Shown one piece after another: positions 2,829 to 19,214 of a stretch of 64,000 nt of DNA (positions are counted from its first letter, which is position 1; the number at the start of each line of letters is the position of its first letter). This DNA comes from Amycolatopsis thermalba (GTDB taxonomy: Bacteria; Actinomycetota; Actinomycetes; Mycobacteriales; Pseudonocardiaceae), in contig NZ_PQHW01000009.1 in NCBI RefSeq assembly GCF_003385215.1, forward strand, positions 1 through 64,000, read 5' to 3'. Both the position numbers and the translations under genes were made by a program. The notes beneath the pieces were generated by a model. The model was given only the letters and a program-made list of their open reading frames with translations, did not search any database and was not told the DNA's origin.

Positions 2829-4779
2829 TCAACGGATCCACCCGGCTTTGTCACGTGCGGCAGGAATCGGCGCGGCCGGATGCTCACGCCGGCGCGAGGG
2901 CCACCAGTTCGCCGCGCCCAGCTTGACCATGACGGCGGGCACGAGCAGGCAGCGGATCACGATCGCGTCCAGCAGCACCGCGACGGTGAGCCCGACGCCG
3001 GCCTCACGCACCACCCGGCTGTCCACGAACGCGAACGCCGCGAACACCAGCGCCATGATCAGCGCGGCCGCGGTGATCGTCCGTCCGGTCGAGACGAGTC
3101 CCTCGACGATCGCGGCCCGCGTGTGCCCGGTGCGGCGCCACTCCTCCTGGATGCGGGAGATCAGGAAGACCTCATAGTCCATCGACAGTCCGAACAGGCC
3201 GGCGAACAGGAACACCGGCAGGTACGGCTCGATCGGACCGCCGAACACCGCGACCACCACCCCGATCGTCGCGCCCGCGGTGAGCAGGTTCATCACCGCC
3301 GCCGTCAGCGGGATCAGCACGCTGCGGAACACCAGAGCCAGTACCAGCACCGAAATCGCCACGACGGCGGCCAGGAAGAGCGGCAACCGGCTGGTCACGG
3401 CGGCCGAGAAGTCGGCCTGCACGGCGACCGCGCCGCCGACGTGCCAGCCCGGGCCGGCGACCTCGCGCAGCCACCCCACCAGCTCGGCCGTCGCCGGATC
3501 GTCCGGTCCGGTGCGGGGTGTGACGGTGAGGACGGGTCCCGGCGCGACACCCGCCCTGGTGGCGACGATCTTGCGGAGGGCTTCGGCGGCCGCCGGATCG
3601 GGCCGCTCGGGGACGAGGACGAGCTGACCGTTCGCGCCCGGGCCGAACGCCTCGGTGAGCAGCGTGTCGGCGATCTTCGTCGGGCTGCCTGGTGGATCGT
3701 GCGCGGCGCCGGGCATGCCCAGCCGCAGCCCCAGCGCGGGCGCCGCCTCCACCGCGATGACCAGCACCGCGGCGACGGCGTACGGCGCGGGCCGCCGCGT
3801 GACCGAGCGGGCCAGCCCGGCCCGGCGCGGAATGCCTGGGCAGCGTGCGCATGCCGGTGAGCCGCAGCAGTGCCGGGAGCAGCGTGAGCGCCGCCAGCAT
3901 CGTGAGGGCGACCGAGACGGCCGAAGTGATCGCGATACCGTCGAGGAACGCCATGCCGACGGTGAACATGCCGGCCAGCGAGACGCAGACCGTGACCCCG
4001 GCGAAGACCACGCTGCGACCCGAGGTGGCCGCGGCGCGTTCCAGCGCTTCCGCCGGTGGCAGTCCTTCACGCAGGCCCTGCCGGTAGCGGGTGAGCACGA
4101 ACAGCGCGTAGTCGACGCCCACGCCGAGCCCGAGCAGCGCGGCGATCTCCGTGCTGATCTTCGGCACGGTCAGCACGTGCGACAGCAACACGACCACGGC
4201 CAGCGCGGAGCCGACCGACACCGCGGCGGTCACCACCGGCAGCACCACGCACGTGAGCGAGCCGAACGTGATCAGCAGGACGACCGCGGCCGCGAGCAGG
4301 CCGATGCCGGCGTTGCCGAGGTTGGGCGCGCCGACGGTCATCGCGGCGAGCTGGCCCGAGACGCCGGCGGTGAGGTTGTCCGTTTGTGCGGTTTCGACGA
4401 GTTGGCGGGCCAGCTCGGGCCCGAGTTGTTCGGCGGGCGCGTCGAAGGTGACGGCGATGACCGCGGTCCGCCGGTCGGCCGACACGAGTGGCGGCGCGAC
4501 CTGGACGACGTGGTCCACAGTGGACAGCCGGCGGATCAGCGCGTCCACCTGGTCCCTGGCCGCGTCGATCGTGCCGGGCGTGGTGACGACGACGCGTTCG
4601 GTGTCACCCGTGGGCAGCAGCTCCGCGGCTCTGGTGCTGTCCGCGGCGGGCAGCGCGACCGTGTCCCGGTACGCGGCGCCGGTGTGCTGCGCGGCGAGCA
4701 CGAGACCGGCGAGGGTGAGCAGCCACAGGACGATCACCCAGGGCGCGTGCCGGAAGCACCGCGACGCGAGTCCTGCCAT
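2829..4779 (-). pseudogene. MMPL/RND-family transporter, interrupted by one frameshift
   Basis: The coding region is split: the N-terminal half reads from the ATG at 4779 (good GGAGGAGGTG ribosome site just upstream) to about 3830, and the C-terminal half continues in another frame to the stop at 2829. The joined product would be about 650 residues with an N-terminal TM helix, a periplasmic loop, TM2-6, a second loop (PERPD, TRAG) and TM7-11, as expected for MMPL lipid/siderophore exporters. The total is one base out of frame; the shift lies near the RTLPR-H segment around 3825-3855. It could be a real mutation, leaving a non-functional transporter, or a sequencing error. It is the first gene of the R2lox operon, divergent from the PucR gene. 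Confidence 0.8.
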
Positions 4780-4954
4780 CCACCTCCTCCCAACCTGGCC
4801 GGAGCGCCAACCTAACCGCGGGGCCCGCCCGGGAACAGGGGTGACGAGGTTTTTCGCTTGACGGTGACACATTTTCCGCGGCGGGTGCGTCCAGCCGTGA
4901 CAGTCTCGGCGGCGAGCGTTGCGCGGCCTGGGCGGATGTGCGTTGATTCCGGGC

Positions 4955-6145
4955 ATGGCGACGACGGCCGGAAACAGTCAGGCAAGCCGACTGTGGTTCT
5001 CGCTGCCCGCCGAGCTGGCCCGGCGGTTCCGTCCGCACGCGGACCGGCTGGCGACGAAGATCCTCGACGAGATCCAGCACGCGGTGCCCGAGTACGCCAA
5101 GCCGCTGGAGGGGCAGTTCGGCGAGGTGATCGTGCGCGCGATCGAGCAGGCCGTGCTGAGCTGCCTGGACAGCATCGAGGACACGAGGTCCACACCGGAC
5201 CGCTGGGGCAAGCTGTTCCACGAGGTCGGCAGGCGCGTCTACCACGACGGTGGGAGCCTGAACTCGTTGCAGGCGGCCTACCGCGCGGGTGGTCAGGCGG
5301 CGTGGCGGTACGTGTCGAGCTTCGGCCAGTCGATGCGGCTGCCGGTGCCGATGCTGTGCGTGAGCGCGGAGGCGATCTTCGCCTACGTGGACGAGATTTC
5401 GTCGTACTCCGTGGAGGGGTACACGCTGGCCCAGGCGCGCGCGACGGGCACGCTGGAACGGCGGCGGCGACGGCTGCTGGAGCTGATCCTCGCCACGCCG
5501 CCGTCGTCCCCCGCGGCGGTGGCGTCGATGGCGAAGGCCGCGCAGTGGGAGGTGCCCGAGTGGGTCACGGTGGTGGCGCTGGAACCGTTGGCGGAGGAGC
5601 AGTTCGCGCCCGCTGTCGGCGAGGACGCGTTGCTGGACCTGGAAGGCGCTTCGCCGTGCCTGCTCACGCCCGACCCGGCGCGTGACCTGGCGGAGATGCC
5701 CCACTGGCGGGCGGCGGTGGGCCCGCGGGTGCGGGTTTCGGACGCCGCGACGTCGCTGCACTGGGCGCGGCGGACGCTGGAACTGGTGCGGGCGGGGGTC
5801 ATCCCGGCCGCGCCGGTGGTGCACAGCGCGGACCACCTGACGACGTTGTGGCTGCTGCAGGACCGGTTCCTGGTGGACGAGCTGTCAGCCCGGGTGCTGG
5901 CCCCGTTCGGCTCGCTGACACCGAAGCAGCGACTGCGGCTGGCCGAGACGCTGCTGGCGTGGCTCAAGTGCAACGGAAGCACACTGGAAATCGCGCGGCT
6001 GCTGGACATCCACCCGCAGACGGTGCGGTACCGGGTGGCGCAGCTGACGGAGCTGTTCGGCGACCGGCTGGGCGACCCGGAGGAGCGGCTGAAGATGCAG
6101 ATCGCGTTGGAGGCGCACCACCTGCTGGGCACGCGGCCGGAGTAG
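4955..6145 (+). CDS. PucR-family transcriptional regulator
   Basis: A 396-residue regulator. The N-terminal 170 residues resemble the helical RsbRD-like sensor domain seen in actinobacterial PucR proteins, the middle is a GGDEF-like non-catalytic module, and the last 60 residues hold the PucR helix-turn-helix (LLAWLKCNGS, IARLLDIHPQTVRYRV). The ATG at 4955 is chosen because the sensor domain starts shortly after it; earlier in-frame codons lack a ribosome site. It is divergent from the MMPL-hydrolase-R2lox-MFS operon with about 175 bp between, so control of that operon is a reasonable inference. It converges with the methyltransferase gene with a 6 bp gap. Confidence 0.85.
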   Translation: MATTAGNSQASRLWFSLPAELARRFRPHADRLATKILDEIQHAVPEYAKPLEGQFGEVIVRAIEQAVLSCLDSIEDTRSTPDRWGKLFHEVGRRVYHDGGSLNSLQAAYRAGGQAAWRYVSSFGQSMRLPVPMLCVSAEAIFAYVDEISSYSVEGYTLAQARATGTLERRRRRLLELILATPPSSPAAVASMAKAAQWEVPEWVTVVALEPLAEEQFAPAVGEDALLDLEGASPCLLTPDPARDLAEMPHWRAAVGPRVRVSDAATSLHWARRTLELVRAGVIPAAPVVHSADHLTTLWLLQDRFLVDELSARVLAPFGSLTPKQRLRLAETLLAWLKCNGSTLEIARLLDIHPQTVRYRVAQLTELFGDRLGDPEERLKMQIALEAHHLLGTRPE

Positions 6146-7099: not shown

Positions 7100-7519
7100 T
7101 CAGCGGCGCCCCCGCTTCGGCAAGGCCGCCACGCCCGCCTCCGCCACCTCGGTGTCCTGCTCGACCGAGCCCGCGCTGACCCCGATGGCCCCGACCACCT
7201 CCCGGCCCCGCACCAGCGGAATCCCACCACCGAAGATGACCAAACCGCCGTTGGTCACCTCGATCCCGGACAGCGGCGCGCCCGGCGCGGCGGCCTCCCC
7301 CAGCTGGGCCGTCGTCATCTTCAGCAGCGCCGCCGTCCGCGCCTTGCGGATCGCGATGTCGATGCTGCCCAGGATCGCGCCGTCCTGCCGGGCGAACGCG
7401 ATCAGGTGCCCGCCGTCGTCGACGACGGCCACGTTCATCGGCTGCCCGATCTCCTCGGCCTTCGCCAGCGCGGCCTCGAGAACCGGCTGGGCATCGGCCA
7501 GTGCGAGACGTGGTGCCAC
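7100..7519 (-). CDS. GlcG/HbpS-type DUF336 protein (PduO C-terminal-like)
   Basis: A 139-residue DUF336 protein: ALAKAEEIG, MNVAVVDDGG, FARQDGA near residue 45 and the Gly-rich stretch GGLVIFGGGIPLV. Relatives include HbpS, GlcG and the C-terminal domain of PduO, several of which bind haem or cobalamin. The GTG at 7519 is preceded by GGAGG. It lies 10 bp after ddrB in the dehydratase operon. A role in cofactor handling or redox sensing fits the context, but no ligand is shown by the sequence. Confidence 0.85.
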   Translation of the reverse strand: MAPRLALADAQPVLEAALAKAEEIGQPMNVAVVDDGGHLIAFARQDGAILGSIDIAIRKARTAALLKMTTAQLGEAAAPGAPLSGIEVTNGGLVIFGGGIPLVRGREVVGAIGVSAGSVEQDTEVAEAGVAALPKRGRR

Positions 7520-7529
7520 GTTTCCTCCT

Positions 7530-7841
7530 TCACTTGAGCGGAATTCCGACGACCATGCGGGCCGCGTTGTGCCCGAGCACCCGCGCGCGCGACAGCGGCC
7601 CGGTCAGCGCGGGCGAACCGGCCGGGCGCTTGGCGTGGTGGACGCACACCTCGTCCGCCACCCCGATCCCCACATCCAAAGTGGACCGGCAAGCAGCCGC
7701 GTACGCCAGGACGAGCGCGTCCCCCGCGGACACTTCCTCCACCACCAGCGGCACCCCCTCCTCCTCCATCCCGGCGCGGATCTCCCGCAACCAGGGCGAC
7801 GAAGCGTCCCGGCACCGCACCACCACCGCAGGACCGCGCAT
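7530..7841 (-). CDS. ddrB: Diol/glycerol dehydratase reactivase, small subunit
   Basis: A 103-residue protein resembling the small reactivase subunit (DdrB/PduH), itself folded like the dehydratase medium subunit. Visible features are the start VVVRCRDAS, the EEEGVP loop, and the conserved C-terminal arginine/alanine region ARVLGHNAARM. With DdrA it exchanges damaged cobalamin in inactivated holo-dehydratase for fresh coenzyme B12. The ATG at 7841 overlaps the ddrA stop by one base (TGATG), so the two subunits are translationally coupled. Confidence 0.85.
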   Translation of the reverse strand: MRGPAVVVRCRDASSPWLREIRAGMEEEGVPLVVEEVSAGDALVLAYAAACRSTLDVGIGVADEVCVHHAKRPAGSPALTGPLSRARVLGHNAARMVVGIPLK

Positions 7842-9676
7842 CAGCCCGCCGTCTCCAGCGAAAGGTCCAGCGCGTGGCTCGCGACCAGCCCGGTGGCCAC
7901 CGCGTTGCGCGGCCCCTCGGTGCCGCGCACATTGCCCGTCCCGCACACGATTCCCATCCCCGCCACCGCTTCGGCGATCATGTCCGGAATCTCGAAGTCC
8001 AGCGCGGACCCGCCGAGCACCACGACGAACCCGATCTGCCGCAGGTTCCCGCCCGGCGCCACCTGCTCCAGCGCGCGCACCGCGTTCACCACGAACACCT
8101 TGTGCTTCGCCGCGCGCCGCACCTGCCGGATCTTCTCCAGGTTGTGCCGCGTCGGCACCGGCCGCATCCCGGACTCGGACAGCACGACCACCCGCGCGAA
8201 CGCCTCCGCGGGCAACGGCTCGTCGAAGAACCGCGCGGTGCCGTCCTCCATCCGCACGTGGAAGAAGCTTTCGGCCTTGGCCAGCGGGTACTTCTTGATG
8301 TCCTCGGCCAGCTCGCGGTTGTCCAGGCCCAGCTCGGAGTCGATCAGCTTCGTCACCAGGTCCCCGGCCCCGGCCAGGTGCACCGACCGCACCACGCCGT
8401 CCCCGGCCACGGCCGCGTCGGTGGACCCGCCGCCGAGGTCGAGGATCGCGACCGGCCGCCCGGTGCCCGGTGTGGTCAGCGCGCCCAGCACCGCCATGTC
8501 GGCCTCGACGCCGCCGATCAGCACCTCCACCCCCAGCGCCTCCCGCAGCTTCTCGGCCAGCAACCGCATCGGTCCCCGGCTGGTGCGCACCATCGCGGCG
8601 AGCGCGACGGCGTTCTCCAGCGCGAACTCGCCGGCCAGCGCGCCGGTGACCTCCTGCGGCACGAACGTGTCCACGGCCAGGACGTCCTGGATCCGCACCG
8701 CCCCCACCGCGGTGCCGGTCAGCTCGGACATCGTGTCGCGGACGCGCGCGAGCATCCCGCCGACGTGGGTGCCGGCCTCGCCCGTCGCGTCGGTGAGCGG
8801 CCGGACCCGGCGCAGGGTCGCCATGATCTCGGCGGCCCCGGCGTCGATCGCCACGGACCGGTTGACCTGCTCACCGATCAGCGTCAGGCTGCCGGCCGGG
8901 ATGCGGCGGCCCGTCACGTCCCCGCTGGGCGTCCGCACCACGACCGCCGACCGGTTGCCGACCAGCGCCCGCGCGACCGGCGCGATCATCCGCGTCTGCT
9001 CGGCGTCCAGGTCGAAGACGGTCGCGATCCCGTACGAATTGGACAGGGTCCGGATGGTCCGACCCGGCTCGGCGACCTCGACCGCGGCCGGCATCCCGAG
9101 CGGCACCTTCTCCACCAGCGTGACCTCGTCGACCACCGGGATCGGCCGCGACAACCGGTTCGCGATCAGCGTCGCGTCGTCAGCGTGCACGATCGCGCCG
9201 GTGACCTCGACCCCACGCGCGACGGCCGCGTCGATGCCCGCGGCCGCGTCCTCGAAGTCCACTCCGGACCCGACCACGCAGATCACCTTCGAGCCCGGCA
9301 CGCACCCGTCGAGCGATCCGAACGCGACGGTCTCACCGACACCCAGGCCCACCCCGCCGGGAGTGTCCGGGTTGTGCCCGATCATCGTCGACTCGGTCAC
9401 GATCGTCTCGGTGATCGTCTCCATCGCCAGGCCGCTGATCACCGGCGTGGCCTCGTTGACCAGCACCGCGCTCAGCTCACGCACCCCACGCCCGGCGGAG
9501 GACAACGCCCGCCGCACGACCTCGACCACTCCGGGCACGTTGTCGGTCGTGCCCTTCACCCCGGACGTCGGCGTCAGCGCGCCGGACAGGTAGGTCACGT
9601 GCCCGCCCGGCGCGATCTCCGCGACGCAGGCCTCCGTGGTCGAGTTCCCGATGTCGACGCCAACCACGAGCGTCAT
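7841..9676 (-). CDS. ddrA: Diol/glycerol dehydratase reactivase, large ATPase subunit
   Basis: A 611-residue protein, the usual length for DdrA/PduG/DhaF. It starts with an actin/Hsp70-type phosphate loop, GVDIGNSTTEAC, at residues 6-17, and has a second nucleotide loop LDLGGGSTDAAV around residues 407-418. The family uses ATP to open inactivated diol dehydratase and release modified cobalamin. It is the fourth gene of the leftward dehydratase operon, 5 bp after pduD, and couples directly to ddrB. Confidence 0.93.
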   Translation of the reverse strand: MTLVVGVDIGNSTTEACVAEIAPGGHVTYLSGALTPTSGVKGTTDNVPGVVEVVRRALSSAGRGVRELSAVLVNEATPVISGLAMETITETIVTESTMIGHNPDTPGGVGLGVGETVAFGSLDGCVPGSKVICVVGSGVDFEDAAAGIDAAVARGVEVTGAIVHADDATLIANRLSRPIPVVDEVTLVEKVPLGMPAAVEVAEPGRTIRTLSNSYGIATVFDLDAEQTRMIAPVARALVGNRSAVVVRTPSGDVTGRRIPAGSLTLIGEQVNRSVAIDAGAAEIMATLRRVRPLTDATGEAGTHVGGMLARVRDTMSELTGTAVGAVRIQDVLAVDTFVPQEVTGALAGEFALENAVALAAMVRTSRGPMRLLAEKLREALGVEVLIGGVEADMAVLGALTTPGTGRPVAILDLGGGSTDAAVAGDGVVRSVHLAGAGDLVTKLIDSELGLDNRELAEDIKKYPLAKAESFFHVRMEDGTARFFDEPLPAEAFARVVVLSESGMRPVPTRHNLEKIRQVRRAAKHKVFVVNAVRALEQVAPGGNLRQIGFVVVLGGSALDFEIPDMIAEAVAGMGIVCGTGNVRGTEGPRNAVATGLVASHALDLSLETAG

Positions 9677-9681
9677 CGCGA

Positions 9682-10272
9682 TCAGCCCGCGTCGGCCAGC
9701 TGGATCCGCACGTCCAGCTCGACGGGTCCGGCGCCGGGCACCACGAACTCGGTCTCCTTGATGTGCAACAGCGCGGCCTTGGCCTGCCAGCGCGGGCGGG
9801 CCATGAAGTCGTTGCGCGAGGGCACCGGTTCCGGCGACTCGCCCTTGGCGTAGCGGGCGGCGTTGCGGCCGACCTTGCGGAAGGTTTCCAGGTCCATCAG
9901 CGGCGCCTGCGGGAACAGCTCCAGATTGGACAGCCGCACCAGGTCCTTCTGGTGGATCATCGTGGTGCCGCGGGACAGCAGGCCGATCGCGATGCCCGAT
10001 CCGGACAGCTTCGCCGCCGCGTGCGCGATCACCGCGAGGTCCGAGCCGCCGCGGAACCGGATCACCCGCGCGTGCACGCCCTGCTCCTCGATGCCGGCGA
10101 GCAGCTCGCGCAGCACCTCGGCGTGCGGGATGTCCACGATGGTCTTGGTGAAGAAGTCCCCGAAGGCGGGCGACAACCCGATGACCACCTCGTCACTGCG
10201 CGTGCCCGGCCCGGCCGGCCCGCGCTCGTCGAGGGTGAGCGTGCGCCGGCTGCCCACACTGGTGTCCGTCAT
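9682..10272 (-). CDS. pduD: Propanediol/glycerol dehydratase, medium (beta) subunit
   Basis: A 196-residue medium subunit (PduD/DhaC-type). Conserved stretches include [36 protein letters not shown] and [15 protein letters not shown]. The family's beta subunit forms the lower part of the adenosylcobalamin pocket. A strong AGGAGG precedes the ATG at 10272. The length is close to glycerol dehydratase beta chains and lacks the long N-terminal extension used by PduD for microcompartment encapsulation, which agrees with the absence of shell genes here. Confidence 0.93.
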
Positions 10273-10283
10273 GGCACTCCTCC

Positions 10284-11972
10284 TCAGACGACTTCCTGCT
10301 CGGGGTTCTGGGCGCTCACCACGTGCCGGAGCCGTTTCATCTCTTCCCAGCGCGCTCCGGTGGGCCGGTAACCGCTGCCCGGGCCGGCGTAGTCGTTGAC
10401 GTCGTTGATCGCGGACAGCGTCTCCAGCTCGGGCGTCAGGATCGCCGACGTGTGCAGCAGGTCCCCGGACACCCGCTGCCGCAACACGGCCAGCAGCGAC
10501 TCGGCCATGTCGGTGAACCCGGCGCCGTCCAGGGCCTTGACGATGTCCACGCCGGTCACGCCGCGGTCCATCACCGACTGGGCCGCCTTGAGGTCCTCCA
10601 GCACGTCCCGCAGCGGCAGGTCCTTGCTGCCGTGCGCGTAGGTGACCGCCTCGACCTCCTTGTCGGTGATCGGCGGCAGGTCCAGCTGCGCGAACACGCC
10701 CTGCAGGGCACGCGCGGCCCGGTTGCGGGCGGCCAGGATCTCCGCCTCGGGCACGTGCCGCAGGCCGCCATCGACCTGGAGGTCGCGCTGCAGCACGTTC
10801 CAGTCGTCGTAGTCCTCGGCGTCCACATTGGATCCGGCGAACATGTTGTCGTAGTTGGGGGTCGAGGAGTAGCCCGAGCAGACGAAGTCGGTGCCGGGCA
10901 GCAGCTGCGGCAGCAGCCGGGCGACCCGGCGCATGTCCGAGTGCGAGAACGACTGGTCGTTGCCGGAGGCGCACTCCAGGTCGACCATGCTCGCGATCAG
11001 GTTCTCCGCGAGCACCGCGCGGATCCCGGCCGGCACCGCGCCGGGCACGCCGATGCAGCTGATCGACCCGTTCTGCAGGCCCTGCACCCCGGCGCCCTTG
11101 GTCACCAGGATGCAGCGGATCTCCAGGTACAGCATGGACTTGCCCTCGGCGTTGCCCATCTGCACCTCCGACCCGGTGCCCGAGGTGAACCGCATCTTGA
11201 TGCCGCGCGAGGCGTAGGCCGAGGCGAGGAACGCCTTGGACCACGGGGTGTCGTCGCCGTCGCAGAACACCGGTTCGGTGCCGTACACCGAGATCGTCTC
11301 GGCGTAGGCGGTGATCCCGCGCATGCCCAGCTCCAGCTCGGTGGCCTCTTCGAGCGCGCACTGGGTCAGCACGCCGGGCGTCCCGGCCTGGGCGCCGACC
11401 TGCAGCGCGATCGCCACGAGCGGCGCGTACCGGACGACGCCGAGCGTGGTCTCCAGCTCGCGGAACCCGCGCAGCGAAGCCTCGGCGGCGTCGGCCGCGA
11501 CCTGCACCGGGTTGTCCCGCGCGCTGGTCGCGTGGGCTTGGTTCGCCGGGGTGCGGCGGGCGCGCATCTTCTGCAGCGCCATCATCATCTCGACCACGTT
11601 CATGGTCTTGACGACCTCGAGCAGCTTCGCCGGGGTGAGCCCGCGGGTCAGCGCGAGCACGTCCTGCCGGGTGGCGCGCGGGTCGACCAGCAGGTGCGCG
11701 ATCTCCACCGCGGGCACGGCCATCGCCTGCTCAGTGACCTCGGCGTCGATCGCGTGGTCGGCGATGAACTGGTCGAGGAAGTCGAACTCGGCCCGCGGCT
11801 TGCCGTCCATCTCGACGATCACGCCGTTCTCGACGCGGACGCCGGGCTCCGGGTCGTACGGGCTGTCCATCGCGACCATGCCGACCTCGGGCCACTCCTC
11901 GACGAACCCGTCGAGGTTGACCGGCCGCTGCTCCAGTGCCTCGGTCCGCTTGGACCGCCGTGCGCCCGTCAT
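10284..11972 (-). CDS. pduC: Coenzyme-B12 propanediol/glycerol dehydratase, large (alpha) subunit
   Basis: A 562-residue catalytic subunit. The Klebsiella diol dehydratase active-site residues are all found with a +4 offset: Q145 and H147 (ANQAHATS), E174, E225 (AYAETIS), Q300 and D339 (ASGNDQSF), as are S305 and Q340 near the substrate. The TIM-barrel enzyme makes propionaldehyde from 1,2-propanediol or 3-hydroxypropionaldehyde from glycerol by a radical mechanism. The sequence does not settle which diol is preferred. The ATG overlaps the pduE stop by 4 bp (ATGA). Confidence 0.95.
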
Positions 11973-12412
11973 CGGCCGTCCTCCCGTGCCAGGATGTCGC
12001 GGCGTTCGTACACGTCGGCGGCTTCGCGGACGAGCTGCGCGCACAGCGTCGCCGAGTAGGTGGTTTCCAGCTCGTCGGCGATCGCGGCCAGCTGTTCCTT
12101 GGTGGAGGCGCACGGCCGGAGCGAGTTGTAGATCGACAGCACCAGCTCGTCGGGCAGCGCAGTCAGCTCCGCCGCGCGGCGGAAGTTCTGCGCGAGCTGC
12201 GGGCGGCCGACGCGCTCGGCGATCTGGGCCTGCAGGCGCAGGGTCTCCGGCGCGATGCGCAGGTCCTCCGGCGCGACCTCACCGGCCAGCACGGCCGCCA
12301 TGGTGAGCTCGTCGAGGCGTTTTCCGGTCGGGGTCTTCAGCAGTTCGGGGCGCCGCGCCGCGAGCGGGTAGTCCCGGCCCGGGTCGAGGTCCACCTGGCT
12401 CGGAGTAGTCAC
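11969..12412 (-). CDS. pduE: Propanediol/glycerol dehydratase, small (gamma) subunit
   Basis: A 147-residue gamma subunit with the typical DYPLAARRPELLKTPTG N-terminal motif, the LRIAPETLRLQA helix and the C-terminal AADVYERRDIL region. The GTG at 12412 is preferred over the GTG at 12436, because a -10 hexamer TACGGT lies exactly 7 bp before it and the 12436 codon overlaps the shared operator; the mRNA is then leaderless. It is the first gene of the dehydratase operon, so the order is E-C-D rather than the C-D-E of enteric pdu operons. Confidence 0.88.
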   Translation of the reverse strand: MTTPSQVDLDPGRDYPLAARRPELLKTPTGKRLDELTMAAVLAGEVAPEDLRIAPETLRLQAQIAERVGRPQLAQNFRRAAELTALPDELVLSIYNSLRPCASTKEQLAAIADELETTYSATLCAQLVREAADVYERRDILAREDGR

Positions 12413-12453
12413 GGGCCGGACCGTAAGCGGCGTCACGTTGCATCAACGTTGCA
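12413..12453 (-). promoter_or_regulatory. Promoter/operator of the dehydratase operon (TGCAACG direct repeat)
   Basis: Read leftward: TGCAACG (12453-12447), TTGA, TGCAACG (12442-12436), 10 bp, TACGGT (12425-12420), 7 bp, GTG start of pduE. The two heptamers repeat with an 11 bp period, and the second sits where a -35 element would be. The same layout occurs before the channel gene and before the aldehyde dehydrogenase gene. Confidence 0.7.
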
Positions 12454-12477
12454 CGTCAGCGGAGGGACCAACCCCAG

Positions 12478-12812
12478 GAGACGCGTTGGCCACCCCGCGC
12501 GGCGTGCTCCCCACTCGTCTCGGCGAATCGACCCGGTCCCGGCACCGAGTTCGCCGCCCCGGGTGCCGTGTGGCGATTCCGGGCAGCGAGTCGGCACCTC
12601 CCGCGCGGCGAGTTGCCGCTCCCGGCGGCGAGCTGGCCCCTCCCGGCGCCGCGTTCGCCCCTCCCGCTGGCGTGTTGGCCGCCTCGCGCGGCGTGCTCCC
12701 ACTCGTCCCCGGTCCCGGCGACGCGTCGGCCCCCTCGCAGCGGCGCGTCGGCCACTCCCAGCGGCGAGTCCGCCGCCCCGGCGACGCGTTCGCCGCCCCC
12801 GGCGCGTTCCCA
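12478..12812. repeat. Imperfect tandem array of about 21 bp units, intergenic
   Basis: The 12,454-12,859 interval has no convincing gene. Most of it is a degenerate tandem array whose best units follow CGGCGAGTTGGCCCCTCCCG (for example near 12606, 12627, 12648), about 15 copies in all. Several frames stay open because 21 is a multiple of three. It is similar in style to the 23 bp array at 53.8 kb. Confidence 0.6.
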
Positions 12813-12859
12813 AACCCCCCGGCGGCGACCGCGCCGGGCCACGACGGCCGGGGCAGCGG

Positions 12860-12893
12860 CGCAACGTCGGTGCAACCCGCGTCTTCGCATCGT
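12860..12893 (+). promoter_or_regulatory. Promoter/operator of the glycerol-facilitator gene
   Basis: CGCAACG (12860-12866), TCGG, TGCAACC (12871-12877), then exactly 10 bp and CATCGT (12888-12893), a weak NANNNT -10. This matches the element before pduE and before the aldehyde dehydrogenase gene, with one change in each heptamer. The GTG start follows 32 bp after the hexamer, behind AAGGAGG. Confidence 0.6.
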
Positions 12894-12925
12894 GTGCGGC
12901 ACCCGACTGCGTCAAGGAGGACCCA

Positions 12926-13795
12926 GTGACCGATGTGGCACCCCTGCGCCGACCCTCCGCCCTGAACCGGCTGACCGGTGGCCGCGGCGATCTGCTCGCC
13001 GAGTTCTTCGGCACGTTCCTGCTCATCGGGCTCGGCGACGCGTGCGTCGCGATGGCCGTGGCCGGTCTGCCCGGCTCCGGCCGCACCGCCGGGGCCACCA
13101 CGATCTTCCAGGGCACCGGCGACTGGCTGCTCATCGTGTGGGGCTGGGCGTTCGCCGTGGCCTTCGCGGTGTACGTCGCGGGCGGGGTCAGCGGCGCGCA
13201 CCTCAACCCGGCGGTGACGCTCGCGATGGCCGTGCGCCGCCGGTTCCCGTGGCGCAAGGTGCCCGGCTACTGCGGCGCGCAGCTGGCCGGCGCGTTCACC
13301 GGCGCCGCGCTCGTGTACGCCGTTTACCACCCGGCGATCAGCGCGTTCGACGCCGCGGCCGGGACGCCGAAGAGCGAAGCCACGTTCTCGATCTTCGCGA
13401 CCGTCCCGGCGCCCTACTTCTCGAACTGGTTCGGTCCGCTGCTCGACCAGGTCGTGGGCACCGCCGTGCTGCTGGTCGTGGTGCTCGCCCTGATCGACGC
13501 GCGCAACAAGGCCGTGTCGCCGAAGATGGGCCCGCTGCTGATCGGGTTCACGGTGGCCGCGATCGGGCTGTCCTACGGCGCGAACGCCGGGTATGCGATC
13601 AACCCGGCGCGCGACTTCGGGCCGCGGCTGTTCGCGTTCTTCGCCGGCTGGGGCGACACCGCGATGACCGGCTACCTGTGGGTGCCGATCGCCGGCCCGC
13701 TGGTCGGCGCCGTTGTCGGGGCCGTGCTGTACGACTTCTTCATCGGCGACGTGCTGCACGCGCGGCAGGTGGCCGAGGAGAAGTTCGTGAGCTAG
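12926..13795 (+). CDS. MIP-family glycerol/diol facilitator
   Basis: A 289-residue aquaglyceroporin-type channel with six TM segments and both NPA boxes: HLNPAVTLA in the first half and AINPARDFGPR in the second. The aspartate after the second box (NPARD) is the usual mark of glycerol facilitators over water channels. The GTG at 12926 follows AAGGAGG. Position between the dehydratase operon and its probable regulator, and the shared promoter element, suggest it brings glycerol or propanediol into the cell. It converges with the regulator gene, overlapping by 4 bp. Confidence 0.9.
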   Translation: MTDVAPLRRPSALNRLTGGRGDLLAEFFGTFLLIGLGDACVAMAVAGLPGSGRTAGATTIFQGTGDWLLIVWGWAFAVAFAVYVAGGVSGAHLNPAVTLAMAVRRRFPWRKVPGYCGAQLAGAFTGAALVYAVYHPAISAFDAAAGTPKSEATFSIFATVPAPYFSNWFGPLLDQVVGTAVLLVVVLALIDARNKAVSPKMGPLLIGFTVAAIGLSYGANAGYAINPARDFGPRLFAFFAGWGDTAMTGYLWVPIAGPLVGAVVGAVLYDFFIGDVLHARQVAEEKFVS

Positions 13796-15285
13796 TCCTC
13801 GCCGAGGAGCCACTCCAGGCGGGCCGTCGCGACGGCCCGCCTGGGGTCGGCCGCCGGAAGCCGCCGGGTCAGGTGCTCGAACACCTCGACGTCGTCCCGG
13901 CCGGTCTCGCTCTGCGCGAACGCCCACAGCACGTCCGGGCCGGGGTGCCCGAGCACCGCGGCGAGCACGGCGGCCACCAGCTGCTCCCGCTCGGCGCGGA
14001 TGGCCGGCGCGTCCGACCGGTTCAGCAGCGGCGCCGGGCAGGCCGCCACCGCCGCCGCCACGTCACCGCTGTTCAACGCCGCGCGCACGCGCAGGAAATC
14101 GGCGTCGACCTCGGCGCGCAGCTGGTACGGCTTGGCCCGCATCGCGTCGCCGCCGAGCTGGCCGCGCAGCCGGTGGATCTCCGCCCGCACGGTCGTCGGG
14201 TTGCCGTCGTCGCCGTAGAGCTGGAACGCCAGCTGCTCGGCGGTCAGCCCGGACGGGTGCAGCGCGAGCAGGGCCAGGATCTCCGCGCGCCGCAGGGTGA
14301 GCGGCAGCTCGCGGCCGTTGATCACGGCGGCCGGGTTGTCACCCAGGAAGGACAGCTCCAGCGTCGGCCGCCGCGTGGCCGTCGTCGACCGGACCCGCAG
14401 CAGGTAGCCCTCCGGCAGCGGCTCGACGTGCGCCTCCCGGCCGTCGTCGAGCAGCACCCGGTCCGCGTCCACCGCGACCCGCTTCGGCAGGCGCCCGAGC
14501 CGGTCGGCGGCGATCACCCGCCCGGTCGGGGTGAGCAGCGCGCCCGGCTCGCCACGCAGCCGCGCGAGGTGCGGCATGTTCTTCGTCAGCAGCTGGCCGT
14601 CCAGCCACTCCATCCGCCGCCGCAGGTGGCTCTCCGCGAGCTGCGCGGTGGCGTTGACCAGCGAAATCGTCGCCGGGTGCAGCGTGTCGAGCAGGCCGCT
14701 GACGTCGATCGCGCCGAGCAGGTCGCCGGTGTCCGGGTCGTGGATCGGGGCCGCCGCGCAGGTCCAGCCGTGGTAGGTCCGCACCAGGTGCTCGGCCGAG
14801 TAAATCTGCACCGGGGCGTCCAGCGCGAGCGCGGTGCCCATCGCGTTGGTGCCGATCGCCCGTTCCGACCAGCCGGTCCCCTCGCACAGCCCGACCGGGT
14901 CCGCCTGGCTGCACAGGCTCGCCGGGCCCTCGCGCCACAGGATCGTGCCGTCGGCGTCGGTGACGATCATGACGTGGCGGGACTCGTCGGCGATGCTGCC
15001 CAGCAGTTCGCGCAGGGTCGGCAGAACGGCGTGCAACGGGTGGGCGTCGCGGACGTCGGCCACCTCGTCGGGTGCGTAGACGATCGGCGGCCGGAAGTCG
15101 TCCGGATCGATGTGCGCGGCGAGTGACCGCTGCCAGGATTCGTGAATCACCGGACGGGGTGACACGGGCGCGCGGGAACCACTCAGGGTTGCTTCGCGAA
15201 CCTGTTGCAGCACTTCGAACTGTGCCATCGGATCCGACGCCAGGTGCAGCGCCGTGGGGGCGGTGTTCACGGTTTCGGCGTCCAT
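13792..15285 (-). CDS. GAF-domain regulator with C-terminal winged helix (AcoR-like sensor half)
   Basis: A 497-residue protein. Residues about 90-220 are a GAF sensor of the AcoR type ([32 protein letters not shown]). Residues about 318-380 form a winged helix of the OmpR/SARP kind ([35 protein letters not shown]). There is no AAA+ sigma-54 domain. Actinobacteria often carry this architecture next to acetaldehyde dehydrogenase genes. SARP/OmpR winged helices bind tandem direct repeats at about 11 bp period, exactly the element found at the three neighbouring promoters, so it is the best candidate activator of the diol regulon. It is divergent from the aldehyde dehydrogenase gene. Confidence 0.82.
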
Positions 15286-15356
15286 TCAGCACTCCGGCGG
15301 CATCGGCGGGACTGGCCCCAGCAGCATGCCGGGCGGATCGCGGATTCGGCAACCGT

Positions 15357-15390
15357 TGCAACGACGCTGCAACGTCGCCTTCCCTAGCTT
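15357..15390 (+). promoter_or_regulatory. Promoter/operator of the aldehyde dehydrogenase operon
   Basis: TGCAACG (15357-15363), ACGC, TGCAACG (15368-15374), 10 bp, TAGCTT (15385-15390), a good -10 hexamer. CGTTGCA at 15354-15360 overlaps the first heptamer and makes an additional inverted arrangement. This site lies in the 161 bp between the divergent regulator and aldehyde dehydrogenase genes and could also serve autoregulation. Confidence 0.72.
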
Positions 15391-15446: not shown

Positions 15447-16970
<1,524 letters not shown>

Positions 16971-16972
16971 TC

Positions 16973-17341
16973 ATGAGCCGGGTGGATCTCACCGACGCCG
17001 CCGCCGACCTGCTGCGGCGGCTGGCCGGACGGCACGGTCCGCTGATGTTCCACCAGTCCGGTGGGTGTTGCGACGGCAGCGCACCGATGTGCTACCCGGC
17101 CGGGGAGTTCCGCACGGGTGGGTCCGACGTGCACCTCGGCGATCTCACGGTCGCCGGCGTGCCGGATCCGATCCCGGTGTGGATGTCGGCCGCCCAGTTC
17201 GAGTACTGGAAGCACACGCACCTGACCATCGACGTGGTGCCCGGCCGGGGCAGCGGGTTCTCACTGGAGGCCCCGGAGGGTGTGCGGTTCCTGATCCGGT
17301 CGCGGTTGCTGACCGACGAAGAGTTGTCTCGATTGGACTGA
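16973..17341 (+). CDS. DUF779 protein, aldehyde dehydrogenase partner
   Basis: A 122-residue DUF779 protein with a cysteine cluster QSGGCCDGSAPMC at residues 24-36, PVWMSAAQFEYWKHTHLTID in the centre and the ending GVRFLIRSRLLTDEEL. The gene is very often next to acetaldehyde dehydrogenase genes; its biochemical role is not established. The ATG follows the dehydrogenase stop by only 2 bp, so co-translation is likely. Confidence 0.88.
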   Translation: MSRVDLTDAAADLLRRLAGRHGPLMFHQSGGCCDGSAPMCYPAGEFRTGGSDVHLGDLTVAGVPDPIPVWMSAAQFEYWKHTHLTIDVVPGRGSGFSLEAPEGVRFLIRSRLLTDEELSRLD

Positions 17342-17351
17342 AAGGACGGGC

Positions 17352-19202
<1,851 letters not shown>

Positions 19203-19214
<12 letters not shown>

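Follow-up and report, generated by a model that had tools for sequence, protein, structure and literature searches.

The enteric pdu and dha operons, the closest described counterparts of the diol genes considered here, are controlled by PocR and DhaR, the second of these being the activator of the dihydroxyacetone kinase operon of E. coli. For promoter architecture, the nearest comparison is with the SARPs, a mode of activation known from antibiotic regulators. According to work on AfsR (PMC10936776) and PimR (PMC5930380), SARPs recognize two 11-bp direct repeats, each composed of a heptamer and a 4-bp spacer, in a box that for AfsR runs from -40 to -19; the afs box itself is a 22-bp element whose centre lies at -29.5 and whose upstream repeat, from -40 to -30, overlaps the -35 (PMC10936776). 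Here we analyse a 64,000-nucleotide stretch of the soil actinomycete Amycolatopsis thermalba (assembly GCF_003385215.1, contig NZ_PQHW01000009.1, positions 1 to 64,000 of the forward strand; hereafter the window), in which a promoter pattern of this kind stands before three transcription units for predicted diol and aldehyde catabolism, grouped around the gene for a regulator that joins a GAF domain to an OmpR-type winged helix. Like the enteric operons, the locus encodes the subunits of a diol dehydratase, a reactivase and a diffusion channel, all behind a single promoter type here; it differs from them in having an ExaC-type aldehyde dehydrogenase (ALDH), a propionate-CoA-ligase-like enzyme, a regulator of another family and no bacterial microcompartment shell gene in the genome (PF00936, 0 matches across the 98.5% complete draft, with the control genomes of E. 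coli and Synechococcus positive).

The genes are laid out as leftward pdu genes (7841-12412), a rightward MIP channel gene, the leftward regulator gene and a rightward series encoding ALDH, a DUF779 protein and an acyl-CoA synthetase (15447-19214). As a sequence-only reading of this DNA had claimed, the 34-bp pattern TGCAACG-N4-TGCAACG-N10-(T/C)ANNNT is found at all three promoters. It is exact before pduE (12420..12453, minus strand; heptamers at 12453-12447 and 12442-12436, -10 TACGGT at 12425-12420) and before the ALDH operon (15357..15390, plus strand; two exact heptamers, -10 TAGCTT), and it has one change per heptamer, two mismatches in all, before the channel gene (12860..12893, plus strand; CGCAACG-N4-TGCAACC, -10-like CATCGT). 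Allowing up to three mismatches, the window holds four matches against 0.18 expected, a count reached by 0 of 100 shuffles; the fourth match (15371-15338, minus strand, three mismatches) results from the palindrome CGTTGCAACG in the ALDH site.

The genome-wide search that the sequence-only reading had suggested as a check singles out the same promoters. Without the -10, the hexamer form TGCAAC-N5-TGCAAC occurs exactly at only two places in the 7,237,143-base (7.24-Mb) genome, both in this locus, and with one mismatch at eight further places, namely the channel site, the palindrome by-product and six elsewhere. With the -10 included, there are seven places at up to two mismatches, and the three at up to one mismatch are exactly the pduE, channel and ALDH promoters, while the four at two mismatches are at chance level (the reversed control gave 12 vs the 7 found). 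None of the six one-mismatch places outside the window stays within one mismatch once the -10 is counted, C25:19504 being among the two-mismatch matches. Genome-wide enrichment of looser matches (up to two mismatches, without the -10) was rejected, with 156 vs 256 for the reversed control. Two candidates for further regulon members were likewise set aside: C90:51930 is upstream of a methylisocitrate-lyase-like gene but points away from it and has no -10-like hexamer at the right spacing, and C2:48803 is located within a DhaR-like regulator gene.

When the -10 is set at -12 to -7, the two 11-bp units occupy -40 to -30 and -29 to -19, so that it is the upstream heptamer, at -40 to -34, which covers the -35, and its downstream partner (-29 to -23) falls into the spacer that separates -35 and -10. 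Replacement of the -35 by the second heptamer, as proposed earlier, is therefore wrong, the heptamer over the -35 having been misassigned. The analogy with SARP and OmpR activators holds for the geometry, which matches the afs box. At pduE, the -10 ends 7 nt before a GTG at 12412, a spacing that recurs in several close relatives, and the start of the longest open reading frame (12436) falls inside the operator. GTG 12412 is the probable pduE start and, with the -10 only 7 nt ahead of it, a leaderless or nearly leaderless pduE mRNA is predicted; the open-licence PubMed Central (PMC) literature yielded nothing specific on actinomycete diol dehydratases or on leaderless mRNA in Amycolatopsis.

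The explanation that best accounts for the data overall, and one that we consider very likely, is that a GAF-sensing, SARP-like activator switches the pdu, channel and ALDH units together, its binding and its activating role both being proposed from sequence. A small-molecule signal would bind the GAF domain, and by pathway logic this would be a short-chain diol, alcohol or aldehyde. Two winged-helix domains would then sit next to each other on the same face of the DNA helix, each on its own heptamer, from about -40 to -19, where they would substitute for the absent -35 and hold RNA polymerase with the housekeeping sigma factor on a -10-only promoter; this is the mode of action of AfsR and probably of other SARPs. 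The sites, spacing, conservation, co-occurrence, covariation and the pdu sites remote from the regulator were computed here, and the transcription starts and polymerase contacts of this mechanism are what we infer. The units switched jointly would be the pdu genes (dehydratase and reactivase), the channel gene and the ALDH-DUF779-acyl-CoA synthetase operon. In a pathway of this type, the diol is taken up and dehydrated in a B12-dependent reaction, and the resulting aldehyde is oxidized to the acid, which is then activated with CoA; the three units combined would take up a diol, dehydrate it to the aldehyde, oxidize this to the acid and form the CoA ester, such that the locus reads as a diol-to-CoA-ester route without a microcompartment.

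Conservation of the sites was assessed in 62 loci (L031-L092) picked by regulator homology alone, some species being present twice. For the ALDH set (ALDH of at least 45% identity, match starting no more than five residues from the start, at least 100 bp of upstream sequence, identical 100-bp stretches merged), all 45 distinct upstream regions carry both exact hexamers, A at -11 and T at -7, with identical spacing. The letter at -12 is T in 39, C in four and G in two, and 43 of them fit YANNNT. Information content is 2.0 bits in the hexamers vs 0.08-0.67 bits in the four bases that separate the two heptamers, and the spacer is mostly variable too. Among 22 distinct pduE upstream regions, several of which are near-copies, the hexamers are exact in 17 and within one mismatch in 20, and 19 of these 20 have a -10-like hexamer at the same spacing; the exceptions, L064 and L065, both from Streptosporangiaceae, have three mismatches each. 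All nine distinct channel upstream regions are at one mismatch of TGCAAC-N5-TGCAAC, and the weaker channel site is therefore itself conserved in that form. Loci in which no ALDH start adjoins the regulator (including L052, L053, L056, L057, L074, L089 and L092) are outside the 45. In four of these (L053, L056, L089, L092), a site at one mismatch is accompanied by a correctly spaced -10-like hexamer, L057 has a one-mismatch repeat pair without such a hexamer, L052 has no site, and in Parafrankia (L074) an exact site lies directly upstream of the acyl-CoA synthetase gene. The genomes in these and the following samples are related, and the counts are not those of independent events.

The pattern also follows the regulator from genome to genome. 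In 120 genomes of the family, the full pattern occurs 77 times in 61 genomes (reversed control 0), and 71 of the 77 matches are within 3 kb of a regulator homologue (coordinates read by hand). Two of the six remote matches are pduE promoters of Prauserella species, separated from the regulator by about 192 kb in P. endophytica and 223 kb in P. flavalba, and at both of these distant pdu loci the channel promoter carries its site too. Of two more, in genome G040, one is found some 370 bp ahead of a gene resembling those of iron-containing alcohol dehydrogenases and the other beside mftR of a mycofactocin cluster, near a contig end; no relative of the genes sought is present in the stretch around the fifth (G038), and the sixth belongs to G114. 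With a close regulator defined as E < 1e-85, a threshold set after the hit list was seen, the full pattern is present in 59 of 66 genomes with a close regulator vs 2 of 54 without (Fisher p 1.5e-23, ignoring relatedness). The two latter genomes are G002, where the regulator is split beside the site, and G038. All seven genomes with a close regulator and no full pattern contain a near-site that is followed by a properly spaced -10-like hexamer; it has one mismatch in G046, G079 and G101, two in G035, G072 and G097, and consists of exact repeats with GACGCT in G088. A count of 74 out of 74 loci was dropped as evidence because many of those loci had been picked via the pattern itself. A wider sample of 296 genomes of the phylum yielded 12 matches in nine genomes (reversed control 0); of the 10 outside the present genome, six have next to them a distant homologue of the regulator that is 34-55% identical to one of two queries, and five of these six loci also have an adjacent ALDH gene, in one case merely 43% identical.

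The regulator gene (13795..15285, minus strand) encodes 497 residues, with a GAF domain (PF01590, residues 84-219), an OmpR-type winged helix (residues 324-380) whose recognition helix (about 364-376) includes R367 and R372, and a C-terminal tail. The nearest named relative of its N-terminal GAF region is DhaR, which is also the nearest solved relative of the GAF domain by profile (PDB 4lrx), but the match is restricted to that region (NCBIfam NF008485, 63.3 bits vs a cut-off of 551, residues 40-215 only), and the DNA-binding part is an OmpR-type winged helix. A profile search of the PDB, up to E 1, matched OmpR-type regulators (8hml, 8hig) and no SARP; with OmpR-family response regulators the protein shares the winged helix, at a weak sequence match, but it has a GAF domain in place of a receiver domain, none of which is among its Pfam matches up to E 0.01. 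In an hhalign comparison of 97 distinct regulator winged-helix segments with nine SARP domains of the same genome (probability 92, pairwise E 6e-7), the winged helix is related to SARP DNA-binding domains. Like AfsR and other SARPs, the regulator has a recognition helix with the motif VRxxxxRLR in an OmpR-type winged helix; unlike them, it carries its DNA-binding domain C-terminally behind a GAF domain, has no detectable BTAD domain, faces another heptamer and is linked to primary carbon catabolism genes rather than antibiotic genes. A BTAD domain in the tail looks likely by eye, but the profile tests are suggestive (scores of 17.4 and 18.8, exceeded by 2 of 60 and 1 of 100 column shuffles), and it is not claimed here. 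By analogy, the regulator probably works like a SARP; we do not file it as one because the GAF domain precedes the winged helix, placing the DNA-binding domain away from the N terminus, and because a BTAD domain in its tail is no more than a candidate. No literature on this regulator family was found among open-licence PubMed Central papers, and excerpts of PMC11166783 and PMC11778925 contain no mention of this regulator.

A link between operator and recognition helix comes from family genomes without a close regulator. ALDH was sought in 53 of these 54 genomes (G002 was left out) and found at 65-79% identity in 14. Its upstream region in 12 of the 14 (loci L215-L226) carries CCAAC-type repeats, mostly GCCAAC, whose period is again 11 bp and whose distance to a (T/C)ANNNT hexamer differs by no more than about 1 bp from that seen before; the remaining two have CGCAAC repeats. 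Regulators beside CCAAC operators have H at the position of R372 in 11 of 11 readable cases and K at that of R367 in 10 of 11, while the TGCAAC group has R at both positions in 83 of 83 rows, among them those of a few members whose own operator is unverified. By a profile alignment with SARPs of the same genome, a SARP-to-AfsR alignment and the shared VRxxxxRLR, R367, R372 and R374 match R87, R92 and R94 of AfsR; of these AfsR arginines, R92 forms a hydrogen bond to a base, and the other two touch phosphates (PMC10936776). Operator and recognition helix thus covary, in what would be a natural specificity switch. Co-occurrence, fixed spacing, the remote pdu sites and this covariation, counted as one event, all support the earlier proposal of a single regulon with the GAF and winged-helix protein as its direct regulator.

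Several results weigh against the activator that we propose. Its winged helix scores 21.5 bits with PF00486 (Trans_reg_C), under the Pfam cut-off of 26.2, and its C-terminal region has no Pfam BTAD match. The distance from heptamer to -10 is 10 bp vs the 8 bp quoted for SARPs, a difference that depends on where the end of the repeat is set. Four of the 10 matches in the phylum sample have no regulator within the fetched stretch of up to 1.5 kb on either side, and the second GAF and winged-helix paralogue of this genome (contig C42, 2560-3666, locus L147), in which R372 is conserved, has no recognisable TGCAAC site or exact heptamer repeat with a -10 in 9 kb. The 11 CCAAC-type regulators form one clade (support 100/100) in a tree built from a subset of 58 rows, and the operator switch is therefore one event; R333 and A353 of the winged helix have changed as well and are exclusive too. 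Finally, three pduC-bearing genomes (G042, G075, G118) have no site at up to two mismatches in 4 kb around the pdu start. These belong to one genus, their pdu genes are 76-77% identical and in another gene order, and the ALDH there has its site; their pdu genes seem to be outside the control of the regulator, and pdu is therefore not always a target. The claim for the present genome does not rest on those three. In loci L246, L247 and L248, the pdu arrangement is a small NF007275-like protein, the MIP channel, pduE and pduC, with no site found and a regulator in the genomes.

What the regulator senses is a separate matter. It could as easily be right as wrong that the mechanism is as proposed and the signal is an aldehyde or alcohol rather than glycerol or propanediol, the pdu genes having joined an older aldehyde/alcohol regulon. 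The conserved partner of the regulator is ALDH. Of the 66 family genomes that encode a close regulator, 50 lack a match to pduC, the dehydratase large subunit (called at E <= 1e-150 in the same 120 genomes); ALDH is therefore the core target and the diols an addition. Sites also lie upstream of iron-containing alcohol dehydrogenase genes and beside mycofactocin genes, and the Parafrankia site directly before the acyl-CoA synthetase gene points the same way. However, pduC is found in 16 of the 120 genomes and all 16 have a close regulator, so the diol link is not loose, and the closest solved relative of the GAF domain belongs to the dihydroxyacetone kinase operon. At the pdu genes, the exact full pattern is present in 12 of the 16, and G004, with a one-mismatch site whose -10-like hexamer starts with G, brings the total to 13. 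The label of diol catabolism given earlier to these promoters is too narrow for a core made up of regulator and ALDH.

The readings that change the mechanism itself appear less probable than the activator. The same protein could act as a repressor that sits on the core promoter and blocks polymerase until ligand releases it, and a box covering -40 to -23 suits this, as many repressors block at such positions; we nevertheless judge it unlikely, since there is no conserved -35 for an independent promoter, the bases between the heptamers hold only 0.08-0.67 bits, and the fixed -10 spacing with the 11-bp tandem layout is a trait of SARP activators. That the repeats are the target of another factor, a true SARP or an OmpR-type response regulator, with the GAF protein no more than a neighbour, is conceivable in a genome with 14 BTAD and 37 Trans_reg_C matches, given that SARPs use such repeats, but it is decidedly improbable, because the pattern follows the presence of this regulator, its location (71 of 77 within 3 kb) and its recognition helix. 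Apart from the shortness of the motif, nothing speaks for chance matches or for shared ancestry without function, and we regard this as scarcely credible: 0 of 100 shuffles reach the window count, the reversed control is 0 in both the 120 and the 296 genomes, and the spacers diverge while the hexamers stay.

Beyond this genome, it is somewhat probable that GAF and OmpR-type winged-helix proteins constitute an undescribed family of SARP-like activators for aldehyde, alcohol and diol catabolism in many Actinomycetota, acting through -35-replacing tandem heptamers and having switched operator at least once (TGCAAC/CCAAC) together with the base-reading arginine. The geometry known from antibiotic regulators would here appear to serve everyday carbon catabolism, with a built-in sensor, in many genera. 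The proposed regulon in the present genome, clean and made up of three promoters, has implications for inducible promoter design in actinomycetes and offers a route to the ligand of an orphan GAF family, and the natural operator switch makes it possible to test directly which residues of the helix recognize the heptamer. The regulon may also extend to mycofactocin-linked alcohol oxidation. Sites at alcohol dehydrogenase-like, regulator-paralogue or mycofactocin genes (mftC, mftD, mftE and mftR by NCBIfam) are at 3885-3918 and 6629-6596 in L128, 3390-3357 in L131 and 3868-3901 in L132. In L128, a gene for an iron-containing alcohol dehydrogenase-like protein next to mycofactocin genes has a site in front of it, and the gene of a 35%-identical regulator is itself preceded by a site with one mismatch.

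As for the individual genes, the leftward run consists of pduE, for the diol dehydratase small subunit (11969..12412, minus strand; PF02287), and the remaining pdu genes (7841..11972, minus strand), which encode the large subunit (10284-11972), the medium subunit (9682-10272) and the reactivase alpha subunit PduG (7841-9676). The MIP-family channel, of aquaglyceroporin type, is encoded at 12926..13795 on the plus strand (PF00230, TIGR00861). The ALDH (15447..16970, plus strand) passes the NCBIfam model NF050026 for ExaC-type acetaldehyde dehydrogenase with 957 bits (cut-off 900) and is followed after 2 bp by the DUF779 gene (16973..17341, plus strand; PF05610) and, 10 bp further on, by the acyl-CoA synthetase gene (17352..19214, plus strand), for which the best model, propionate--CoA ligase NF007815, gives 738 bits, below its cut-off of 955. 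Past the pdu genes, a PucR-type regulator (HTH_30) is encoded at 4919-6145 and may also take part in controlling this region. The pdu run closes with a small protein gene (7100-7519) with a weak match to NCBIfam NF007275, whose product we take to be HbpS-like; an NF007275-like small protein stays with the pdu genes in the Prauserella, Sciscionella and Sphaerisporangium loci and in L246-L249. The intergenic region between pduE and the channel gene contains degenerate GC-rich tandem repeats of period 21 (12578-12804; 5.5 and 4.3 copies), and in several relatives the pduE and channel sites are much closer to each other than in this window.

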